A DNA stretch of 64,000 nt from Psychrobacter immobilis (GTDB taxonomy: Bacteria; Pseudomonadota; Gammaproteobacteria; Pseudomonadales; Moraxellaceae). Shown piece by piece: positions 4,438-55,568 of the stretch (positions are counted from its first letter, which is position 1; each line of letters opens with the position of its first letter). Where the stretch lies: NCBI RefSeq assembly GCF_904846175.1, contig NZ_CAJGZM010000009.1, positions 1 to 64,000 of the forward strand, read 5' to 3'. Made by a program: the position numbers and the translations under genes. The notes below the pieces were generated by a model that saw only the letters and a program-made list of their open reading frames with translations, did not search any database and was not told the DNA's origin.

Positions 4438-4468
4438 TAATACTTAACGCTAATAGCGTTAAGTATTA
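4438..4468 (-). terminator. Terminator-like hairpin after the EcsC-family gene
   Basis: A perfect 14-bp stem, TAATACTTAACGCT (4438-4451) and AGCGTTAAGTATTA (4455-4468), with a 3-nt loop, 9 bp after the stop codon. The T-run on the minus strand is poor (AATTGCTC), so this may stabilise the 3' end more than terminate. Confidence 0.55.
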
Positions 4469-4476
4469 GAAGGTTT

Positions 4477-5694
4477 CTATTTACTCTGCTTGTTAGCGGC
4501 GTTATCGGTTTTGCTTGATGTTTTATCAGCTGTCTTATCAGCATCATCCTTTTTCGGCTCTTTTTTGTCGCTCTTTTTTTCAGTTTCTTGAGCGCCCTCT
4601 TTAACACTTTTTTTAGCGGACTCTTTTTTGCTGTCAGCATCTTTGCTTAATTCTTTGTCAGTATTTTTCTCAGTATCTTGCTGCTTATTAGTGCTATCAG
4701 GCTTATTATCAGCGCTAGCAGGTTTGCTCACTTCGGCTTCACTACTGCTATCGTCGGTAATCGCACGGTTAGCAAGTTTGGCTTCTGGCGCAAAAGTCGC
4801 TTGCGCCACGCCAATCACTTCATCAATCAGCTGACTGTTATAACGCATACCGATAATTACGGCAGTCGCCGGTAAGAATCGACGTATCCATGACAAATTA
4901 ATTTGGTCTAAATCAATACCAACTTGACTGGCAATACTATCTACTTGCTCAGCATAAAAATTGACGCTTTTATTCTGCAAGCCTAAGTTTTTCAGCTCAT
5001 TATGCAGACCGCTACTTTGCGCGTTATCGAGTAAGCCTTTACCGATACCAAGACCCGCTAGCAAGGCTTGTTTTTCTTGCATCTTACTTAAATCGGCATT
5101 GGCAAGCAGCTCATAAGCCATCTTGACGCCTTGTTTGCCCGTTAACGGCTTATTATAAACAGCACCTAATTGATAAACGGTACGCAATGATACCAATAAC
5201 AACCACAAGGTATCCGCGAGTAAACCTGGCAAGCCAGCTAGACCTGTCAAACCACCTAACGTCGCCAAAGCACGGTTTTGGTTGGCAATATCAGTGGCCA
5301 GTGCATAGCGCTCTTCGTTATCTAAGCTTGCAATATTAGCAAAACGATGCTGATTTGGCAGATCAATCTGACTCCAATTGGCAGCAAGCTTAGCGACTTG
5401 GGCAAAAGCACCATCGACCGTTGATTCAAACAAGCTGTTTGGCACTACTTTTTTGGCATATTTACTATAAGTGGCGAAGCGCGTGCCCAATAGTTGCTGC
5501 GTTGCTTTTAACGTTTGCTCACGGAATAAATCTTGTTGATAGTCTTCATCGCCTAGGTTTACCGCTTTAAATTGACGCGGTTTGCCGCTCTTGGCGTTGA
5601 CGCTATCAATCATTGCGCCCATACGTTCTAAGTTATTGCGAGTAAAAGAACCAACGCTGCTGATGCCTTTATATAGAGTGCTACGCTTTGCCAT
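4477..5694 (-). CDS. EcsC family protein with long charged tail
   Basis: 405 residues. Residues about 60-310 resemble the EcsC family (named after Bacillus EcsC), including the hydrophobic segment LGGLTGLAGLPGLLADTLWL typical of that family, which probably associates with membrane. Family function is poorly defined; a role near transport or proteases is only inferred. Residues 314-405 form a low-complexity tail made almost entirely of Lys, Asp, Glu, Ser, Ala, Thr and Asn, with no hydrophobic core, so it is likely disordered. The start has AAGGAT upstream. It stands alone, divergent from fabB, with its own terminator-like hairpin. The tail is the oddest feature and may be specific to this lineage. 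Confidence 0.85.
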   Translation of the reverse strand: MAKRSTLYKGISSVGSFTRNNLERMGAMIDSVNAKSGKPRQFKAVNLGDEDYQQDLFREQTLKATQQLLGTRFATYSKYAKKVVPNSLFESTVDGAFAQVAKLAANWSQIDLPNQHRFANIASLDNEERYALATDIANQNRALATLGGLTGLAGLPGLLADTLWLLLVSLRTVYQLGAVYNKPLTGKQGVKMAYELLANADLSKMQEKQALLAGLGIGKGLLDNAQSSGLHNELKNLGLQNKSVNFYAEQVDSIASQVGIDLDQINLSWIRRFLPATAVIIGMRYNSQLIDEVIGVAQATFAPEAKLANRAITDDSSSEAEVSKPASADNKPDSTNKQQDTEKNTDKELSKDADSKKESAKKSVKEGAQETEKKSDKKEPKKDDADKTADKTSSKTDNAANKQSK

Positions 5695-6332
5695 CTTAAT
5701 ATCCTTAATATGATGATTGTTTGTTATTAATATTATTTATAGATAGTTCTTAAATAGATACATCTTAAATTGACTGTCATTCTAGCGAACGCGAATGATT
5801 ACTGTCAGTGCCAACAATGTTATCATCACTGCCAGTTTTGTATCTAAAAGTATCACTTACTTATAGCTATTTTCGGCTTTAGTATATAACTAAATGCGCT
5901 GTGGCGTGAATGAGTTTATGCTATTCTCAGCCAGATTTCATAATTTCATGGCCTCTTTATCACCATGTAGATATAGTGCTAGATCTATAATAATACCGAG
6001 CAGTTATTTTTAATAATAAGCATGATTTTGTCGTTATTTTACACTTACGCCAAGATTTTAAACCCTTGATACGTTATCATAGGCCATAATTCAAAGTACA
6101 GTTGTACTTTGAATTAGCACGCAGGATTTATAAAGAATAACGTTTTATGCTAACCACTAGCATGACTGTAAAAACACTGTAATCACTGTCAAATAAGCAT
6201 TTAGCGTCTTAAACCCTCCTAAAAGCTTTTTATTAAAGGTGAAAGGTTGGGGTGTTGAATAATAGCAGTAAATACTTAAAAGCGATTGTTAAAGGTAATT
6301 ATCAAAAAATCGTTACTCATAAGGAATAGTAT
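5695..6332. other. Divergent regulatory region, EcsC gene / fabB
   Basis: A 638-bp spacer between two divergently transcribed genes. It holds the palindrome at 6088-6115 and a weak promoter overlapping its right arm. I found no supported ORF in the remainder. Confidence 0.5.
6088..6115. promoter_or_regulatory. Perfect palindrome upstream of fabB, candidate fatty-acid operator
   Basis: AATTCAAAGTACA (6088-6100), 2-bp centre GT, TGTACTTTGAATT (6103-6115): 13 bp per arm with no mismatch. The core GTACA-NN-TGTAC resembles what I recall of FabR/DesT-type operators in front of fabA and fabB in other Gammaproteobacteria. A weak plus-strand promoter (TTTGAA 6108-6113, 15 bp, TATAAA 6129-6134) overlaps the right arm, which would fit repression. 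It is 217 bp from the fabB start. No T-run follows, so it is not a terminator. Confidence 0.5.
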
Positions 6333-7568
6333 ATGCGCCGCGTTGTTATCACTGGAGCAGGGATTGTCTCTTGTATCGGACATGATTTGGCGACTGTCAC
6401 CGATGCTCTTAAACAAGGGCGCTCAGGTATTACGTTCAATGAATCGTATGCTGAGCACGACTTTAAATCACACGTTAGCGGTAGTATTAATCAATCAGAA
6501 CTTGATACGTCGGGCATCGATCGTAAATTGAAGCGTTTTTTTAGTGATGCCAGCCTTTATGCTTATGTCAGCGCTTTGGACGCCATTGAGCAGTCGGGCC
6601 TCTCGCTTGAGACCATTAACCATAACCCACGCGTGGGTGTGGTCGCAAGCTCAGGCGGGGCGTCAACTGAAAATATCGTCAATGCTGTCGATGCGATGCG
6701 TGAAAAAGGTCTACGCGGTGTCGGTGCAATGGCGGTGCCAAAAACCATGGGCAGCTCGGTATCCGCGGCGCTTGCAACGGGTTTGAAAATCCAAGGTGTT
6801 TCTTATTCATTGAGCTCTGCTTGCGCAACGTCAACGCATTGTATTGGTCATGCCGCCGAGCTTATCCAGCTTGGTAAAGCCGATGTGATACTTGCTGGTG
6901 GTAGTGAAGCGGAGCATTGGACGCAGTCTTGTATGTTTGATGCCATGGGCGCGGTCAGTACGCAGTATAACGACACGCCAACGCTTGCTTCTAGAGCCTA
7001 TGATAAAAATCGTGATGGCTTTGTGATTGCAGCAGGCGGCGCGATGGTGGTGGTTGAAAGTCTTGAGCATGCCCAAGCACGCGGTGCCAATATCTTGGCT
7101 GAAATCGTTGGTTATGGTGCCAGCTCTGATGGCGCTGAAATGGTTGCTCCAAGTGGCGAAGGTGCTGTCCGCTGTATGCAACTTGCCCTTGCTGAAGCAG
7201 GTTTAGAAAGCGTTGATTATATCAATAGCCATGGTACCAGTACACCGCTAGGCGATATAACTGAGCTTAAAGCCATTGCCAAAGTATTTGGTGATGATGC
7301 TAGTAAAGTACCTGCTATCAGCTCAACCAAGTCCATGACCGGTCATAGCTTGGGTGCAGTCGGCGCGCAAGAATTGATTTATTGCTTACTTATGCTGCAA
7401 GAAGGCTTTATCGCGCCTAGTATCAATATTACAGAATTAGACCCTGCTGCTGAAGGCTTTGATATTGTTACTAAAAAGCGTGACGTTAAGCTTGAAACGC
7501 TTATGAGCAATAGCTTTGGATTTGGTGGCACTAACGCTACTCTAATTATTAAAAAGTTTGACGCCTAA
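6333..7568 (+). CDS. fabB: 3-oxoacyl-ACP synthase I (KAS I)
   Basis: 411 residues, usual for FabB. It condenses malonyl-ACP with acyl-ACP in fatty acid elongation and, in Gammaproteobacteria, is essential for unsaturated fatty acids. The catalytic triad is visible: Cys164 in SSACATSTH, His300 in [11 protein letters not shown] and His338 in KSMTGHSLG, with Lys333 beside it. The C-terminal [12 protein letters not shown] motif is present. The active-site spacing and SSACATSTH favour FabB over FabF. The start has AAGGAATAG upstream. pabB follows after 2 nt, so the two are co-transcribed. The palindrome at 6088-6115 probably belongs to its control region. Confidence 0.95.
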
Positions 7569-19951: not shown

Positions 19952-19985
19952 AAAAAAGCCCATATCCTAGGATATGGGCTTTTTC
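19952..19985. terminator. Strong bidirectional terminator, PfkB kinase / metY
   Basis: A perfect 12-bp-per-arm palindrome AGCCCATATCCT/AGGATATGGGCT (19957-19980), flanked by A-run (19952-19957) and TTTTT (19981-19985). It serves both convergent genes. Confidence 0.85.
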
Positions 19986-31595: not shown

Positions 31596-31640
31596 AAAAA
31601 AGGAGAGAAGGGCTAACGATAAGCCCTTCTCTCCTTTTTT
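31596..31640. terminator. Very strong bidirectional terminator
   Basis: A perfect 19-bp stem (31596-31614 and 31622-31640) with a 7-nt loop; the stem ends are A6 and T6. It serves the convergent FAD oxidoreductase and LOG-family genes. Confidence 0.9.
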
Positions 31641-55092: not shown

Positions 55093-55568
55093 TCTAGTGG
55101 CAAATAAACGGCAATAAGTTAAACCGCTAAAAAGATATCCTTAACAAAAAAGCGCGTAAATATTTTCATATTTACGCGCTTTTTTAGTGAAAAAATATAG
55201 TCGCCGATACTATCTAAAGTATTGACTATCTATTTACATCGTTTGTCGTGTTAGGTTTTATTTTAATTTAATTTAAAAACACTTTACGTATTTGTATTTG
55301 ATACAATCATGTTACTAGCAACTTACAGATTGATTACTTTTCAGATTCTGGCAGGCAAAATAAAACGGATTAATGGGTAAAAGTGCGCCTTAGCGGTACG
55401 CTAATAATATGACGCCCGTTATTTTAGCCCTTATAAATATCGAATTTAAATGTCGAAATCCTAGCTTCTACTTTATCCAAAATATTGAAATAATTTCTAC
55501 CATCATGACCACTAAATTATCATAAAAATATAGTTTTACATATTATTTTTCATCATAAGGATATTCCA
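55093..55568. other. Spacer, SDR / tsdA
   Basis: 476 bp. The SDR terminator is at its start. The rest is AT-rich with no supported ORF and no RNA gene recognised; the tsdA promoter must lie here but no convincing match was seen. Confidence 0.45.
55146..55185 (+). terminator. Terminator after the SDR gene
   Basis: A perfect 17-bp stem, AAAAAAGCGCGTAAATA (55146-55162) and TATTTACGCGCTTTTTT (55169-55185), with a 6-nt loop. Confidence 0.88.

Follow-up and report, generated by a model that had tools for sequence, protein, structure and literature searches.

The window, that is, the whole 64,000-nucleotide stretch of Psychrobacter immobilis DNA that was analysed, carries a perfect palindrome 217-246 bp 5' of the fabB start at 6333, within the 638 bp that separate fabB (6333-7568) from a leftward gene (4477-5694). 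The encoded FabB scores 615.5 bits against the model PRK07967 FabB, slightly below its cut-off of 630, and is 97 percent identical to its counterparts in the nearest genomes of the genus (96 percent to that of Psychrobacter sp. ANT_WB68). The features considered here are the following:

6033..6087, plus strand: promoter-like block conserved in 12 selected sequences, with a putative promoter role
6087..6116, no strand: perfect palindrome with 14-bp arms and a GT spacer; proposed fabB operator, single copy in the genome
6093..6110, no strand: 18-bp candidate operator in the FabR/DesT frame, AAAGTACAGTTGTACTTT, from motif scoring and genus comparison
6096-6107: GTACAGTTGTAC, the portion of the 18-bp site kept among relatives
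6333..7568, plus strand: fabB, 3-oxoacyl-ACP synthase I, 411 aa, best model PRK07967 FabB
G000:C1:381801-382478, elsewhere in the genome: gene of a FabR/DesT-type TetR protein of 226 aa, from a FabR-query search, NCBIfam and PDB

The palindrome reads TAATTCAAAGTACA-GT-TGTACTTTGAATTA, an inverted repeat without mismatch. A first-pass annotation of this DNA had placed it at 6088-6115 with 13-bp arms; the perfect symmetry stands, but the extent was one pair short, the arms being 14 bp long (6087-6116). That annotation had also proposed a genome search, in which the palindrome proves not to be scattered: its central 24-mer has a single copy in the genome (3.12 Mb) when up to three mismatches are allowed, and the reversed control has none. 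To gauge chance, 20 copies of the window were generated by a first-order Markov model: with spacers of up to 20, none had a perfect inverted repeat whose arms reached 14 bp, and repeats whose arms reached 11 bp averaged 0.25. In the real window seven repeats reach 14 bp, the palindrome being one of them, and some may be terminators. Other long perfect inverted repeats, with arms of 15-19 bp, were observed at window positions 31596-31640, 55146-55185, 19953-19984 (where the spacer is absent) and 4438-4468; these are perhaps terminators in part.

For comparison within the genus, all 87 fabB upstream regions were taken from 100 Psychrobacter genomes, with fabB matches at E <= 1e-120; the other 13 genomes have no fabB match at this threshold, though fabF and regulator matches are present. 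The block at about 6033-6087 is almost invariant in 12 hand-picked sequences, including TTATTTT-CA-TT and TTGATACGTTATCAT. The latter, at 6066-6080, has an exact copy in 40 of the 87 regions, and a looser element, GATACGNTATNAT, is found in 72, including regions that have no palindrome. We take the block for a putative promoter of fabB that may include an activator site; TATCAT at 6075-6080 is a possible -10 element, from which transcription would begin at or near the palindrome. The earlier suggestion that the palindrome overlaps a weak promoter finds poor support as it was drawn, since a consensus scan near the palindrome gave no plus-strand sigma-70 match with 16-18 bp spacing. The block also contains a TGATA-CGT-TATCA inverted repeat, and it recalls a conserved 30-bp element before fabAB in Pseudomonas (available text of PMC3462791).

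The palindrome had been attributed to a FabR/DesT-type regulator, and the genome does encode a protein of this type. With E. coli K-12 FabR as query, one clear TetR relative was obtained (E 1.1e-19, the next best being 7.6e-5); all six matches at E <= 1 lie outside contig C9, to which the window belongs, in agreement with the earlier remark that the window has no fabR or desT gene. In the PDB, DesT alone matches this TetR relative at E <= 0.001 (E 1.4e-26), in an alignment that covers the HTH and beyond, with VTREVGVVPTAFYRHF in the regulator against VTRAAGIVPAGFYRHF in DesT. The best NCBIfam model is FabR (3.5e-31), and at 108.5 bits the protein misses the equivalog cut-off of 151 bits, so that it is named FabR/DesT-type here and not FabR. 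The regulator was matched in all 100 genomes of the genus searched, with an internal stop in one copy, and in a comparison of 30 genomes its residues 1-62 are invariant except for a single difference in one. The regulator gene lies on contig C1, preceded by a gene that we take to be dgt, and the desaturase gene on contig C2; the divergent gene order of the DesT type is absent. Before the regulator gene itself, 18 genomes were read and none shows an operator (the best places match at 8-10 of 16 positions); autoregulation was rejected on this ground.

One desaturase (PF00487) match was found in the genome, with the site AGTGTATAAGTGTTCACT upstream at -74. The pattern AGTGYATRNNYGTTCACT is present in 30 of 30 desaturase regions of the genus and in 19 of 20 further ones, the last carrying a one-base variant; the desaturase upstream regions, which the first-pass annotation had named as a place to look, therefore bear a FabR/DesT-type site in all 50 cases read. 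Apart from FabB the genome yielded one FabF, whose gene is preceded at 65-82 bp by AGTTTACATACGTACACT followed by TATAAT. Matches to AGTGTACANNTGTACACT at 12-14 of 16 positions occur in 30 of 30 fabF regions and in 17 of 20 further ones (47/50 in total); of these 17, 14 fit the TATAAT-containing pattern and three fit the 16-position consensus only (13 of 16). The three genomes in which the fabF site is missing (G092, G005 and G035) are also without a fabB match (E <= 1e-120). Of 99 genomes with a desaturase and 100 with fabF, 50 each were read, the first 30 being the best-scoring matches and the other 20, mostly more divergent, having been selected by hand before inspection; the desaturase sample omits the most divergent genomes, in which the match does not start at residue 1. 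At one desaturase locus (L345) the site is at -270, probably through a misplaced start, and was scored as present. The fabF place was chosen from the list of AGTGWAYANNTGTTCACT matches for its position before fabF, and passed the conservation test afterwards.

Core matches within the own genome are not enriched. AGTGWAYANNTGTTCACT at up to three mismatches has 65 places on both strands against 79 for the reversed control, the desaturase site alone being exact, and AAGTACANNTGTACTT at three mismatches has 128 places per strand against 124 for the control, for which reason a genome-wide core search was rejected as a regulon finder. Among the places listed, the ten best AAGTACANNTGTACTT places outside fabB comprise six intragenic and four intergenic ones, and no gene flanking the latter four was recognised as a lipid gene. 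As the whole-genome counts show no excess over control, the argument draws its strength from three promoters at which the site is conserved. Both the FabR motif in the literature, AGCGTACACGTGTTCGCT, and the desA site of Shewanella, AGCTTACAGCTGTACGCT (available text of PMC4273635), are similar to the sites found at the desaturase and fabF, and a FabR/DesT regulon very probably exists in Psychrobacter.

The window site itself fits this picture in part. Its half-sites, AAAGTACA, deviate from the genus consensus, with AA at positions 2-3 in place of its GT or GC; compared to half-sites of the AGYGTACA / AGTGAACA kind, the GTACANNTGTAC core matches and positions 2-3 of each half-site differ. A motif derived from Psychrobacter fabB sites was dropped as circular for the window site, and independent motifs built without any such site were used to score 68 of the 87 regions before fabB. 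The desaturase-plus-fabF motif gives the window site a score of 5.6 and rank 39 in the window (P = 0.38 against shuffles that preserve base composition and nothing more), whereas 21 scored GCATAATTGTACA sites, a diverged and more FabR-like form at fabB, reach 13.0-15.3 (P = 0.005-0.01 against the same shuffles). The rank of the window site is 9 with desaturase sites alone, 216 with fabF sites alone and 11 with all three site groups pooled. With a motif from five Enterobacterales and Rheinheimera fabB sites, the window palindrome ranks first of 63,983 positions. Matches at 13-14 of 16 positions occur in 17 of 80 fabB upstream regions of named genomes, 15 of the 17 being from Enterobacterales or Rheinheimera. 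With half-sites that in this clade no longer follow the genus consensus, the palindrome is a putative binding site of this repressor; its place, its core and the sites of the sister clades all favour FabR/DesT.

The altered half-sites could also be explained by a change of regulator, in which another dimeric repressor took over the fabB promoter in this clade through AGTACANNTGTACT and FabR/DesT kept the desaturase and fabF. Both half-sites have moved off the genus consensus while the DNA-binding part of the regulator and its other sites are unchanged, which speaks for a takeover, and the genome has other TetR-like genes. However, the central 24-mer occurs nowhere else in the genome at three mismatches; the sole other exact AAGTACANNTGTACTT among the places listed sits within a long gene, presumably that of isocitrate dehydrogenase; nine places with two mismatches showed no recognised regulator or lipid target; and the GTACANNTGTAC core is identical to that of the Enterobacterales fabB site. 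We consider such a takeover unlikely. The canonical desaturase and fabF sites, together with the near-constant residues 1-62 of the regulator, suggest that the fabB site changed without a change in its reader, and as the places examined gave the new half-site no other target, we favour a tolerated change or a weaker operator over a change of regulator.

If the fabB site were a relic of an old FabR/DesT operator, now drifting and unimportant, with arms made perfect partly by luck, then neither its core nor its position would be expected to persist. Of the 87 fabB upstream regions, 29 keep GTACANNTGTAC and 22 have GCATAATTGTACA; the distance past GATACG is exactly 28 bp for 28 of the 29 and for all 22. 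GTATGCTTGTACACTG was found in three more, one at 26 bp from GATACG and two without that anchor. The remaining 33 regions have no recognisable site (all of GTACANNTGTAC, GCATAATTGTACA and GTATGCTTGTACACTG being absent), which accords with a relic, as does the lack of conservation of the outer pairs between clades (columns 4 and 6, for example, are paired in 1 and 3 of 12). Within the GTACANNTGTAC group the outer arms differ, reading TTTGAATTA in the window and TTTTATTTA, CATTATTTA, TTCTATTTA or TCGGATTTA elsewhere; of the genomes read, this one alone thus has the perfect 14-bp symmetry, and AGTACANNTGTAC is what is kept. The alignment of fabB upstream regions proposed in the first-pass annotation accordingly shows a core and a position kept in part of the genus, and outer arms that are not. 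Given the constant offset and the full symmetry of the window copy, loss of function is improbable. Still less credible is action as RNA, with the fabB messenger beginning in a hairpin: folded as RNA, the window copy is stable (-14.5 kcal/mol, z -7.2), but in 12 sequences, hand-picked out of 20 distinct ones in the genus, pairing is kept in 76.2 percent of cells against a shuffled mean of 77.7, double changes are fewer than in shuffles, and no terminator-like site was found where one was looked for, so that the hairpin and intrinsic-terminator readings were both rejected and the lack of covariation speaks for a DNA site.

The original reading of the palindrome as a fatty-acid repressor operator is therefore supported, as a regulator of the right type is present and the desaturase and fabF bear the same type of operator. 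The fabB site is most likely a third operator of the FabR/DesT regulon, and there is good reason to believe that the FabR/DesT-type TetR repressor, which would also control the desaturase and fabF, uses the palindrome as an operator. More tentatively, with the odds slightly against it, the repressor may have been rewired in bacteria that lack FabA and rely on a desaturase for unsaturated acids, so that desaturase, fabF and fabB are switched jointly, chain length is coupled to desaturation and the fabB operator is a weaker or second-tier one specific to the clade. A repressor dimer, or a pair of dimers, would sit on the 18-bp core at or just past the fabB promoter. When unsaturated acyl thioesters are plentiful, the repressor would block fabB transcription; saturated acyl thioesters would release it. 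The desaturase and fabF would be under the same repressor, and we propose that desaturation and chain elongation are thereby set together. The identity of the binding protein, the repression and the ligand response are drawn by analogy, the ligand mechanism being proposed from homology to E. coli FabR and P. aeruginosa DesT. In the available texts, FabR with C18:1-ACP represses E. coli fabB and C16:0-ACP relieves this (PMC11525553), and DesT binding is strengthened by unsaturated and weakened by saturated acyl-CoAs (PMC10634369).

FabA works together with FabB when unsaturated acids are made anaerobically, and the first-pass annotation had named fabA as a possible palindrome-bearing target. 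No FabA was found in the own genome (99.94 percent complete), where the single PF07977 match (E <= 0.001) is FabZ. A. baumannii belongs, we assume, to the same family as Psychrobacter. FabA is said to be typically missing there as well (available text of PMC11448061). As FabA was not found, the link would be between chain elongation and desaturation and not within the FabA/FabB pathway, and fabB is probably an elongation enzyme here.

Among known systems, the FabR operator of Enterobacterales, whose E. coli FabR is a sequence relative of the Psychrobacter regulator, shares the GTACANNTGTAC core before fabB (e.g., AGCGTACACTTGTACGCC); the core given for Salmonella is ACAnnTGTnnnnT (available text of PMC4804515). 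It differs in its outer half-site (AGC/GCY, against AAA/TTT in the window), in its distance to the start codon (about 65-72 bp, against 217-246 bp) and in that no FabA was found in the Psychrobacter genome. P. aeruginosa DesT (desCB, fabAB), to which the regulator has its one PDB match at E <= 0.001, has a binding site before fabAB as well (available texts of PMC10634369 and PMC3462791). Unlike that system, Psychrobacter has the regulator gene away from the desaturase gene, has a fabF site and yielded no FabA. In Shewanella oneidensis (FabR; desA, fabA), as described in the available text of PMC4273635, one FabR relative likewise acts on a desaturase and a FabR-like motif lies at the predicted desA start, but fabA is present and desA and fabR form a divergon.

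Comparative FabR regulons have been described for 74 genomes of 10 taxa, with desABC co-regulated in several lineages, so that FabR control of desaturases and taxon-specific changes of the FabR motif are already known; Psychrobacter has no occurrence in the main text of that study, as far as available (PMC5343134). Control of fabF, fabB and a desaturase by one such repressor, in a genus in which no FabA was found, may be new: the literature searched, in the texts available and with RegPrecise outside the search, contained no statement of such joint control, and no paper joining Psychrobacter, DesT and desaturase was found. With fabF plus fabB among the proposed targets and no FabA, the FabR/DesT circuit would seem to have persisted beyond the FabA pathway, with which it is chiefly associated. 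Many Psychrobacter are cold dwellers, a life in which membrane fluidity must be tuned, and with a single candidate repressor and three operators named, the control of desaturation in Psychrobacter becomes directly testable.

Two further observations concern other sites of this kind. A FabR/DesT-like place, AGTTAACAACTGTACATC, lies before accB (BCCP of acetyl-CoA carboxylase; L326 / L263) among the AGTGWAYANNTGTTCACT matches of the genome and is noted as a candidate, uncounted above. In 30 desaturase regions, a TACAAGTTATTGTTATTTAGCAATATTTTT-like stretch with few changes lies immediately 5' of the DesT-type site (L112, about 4480-4540), and may be bound by a second factor.
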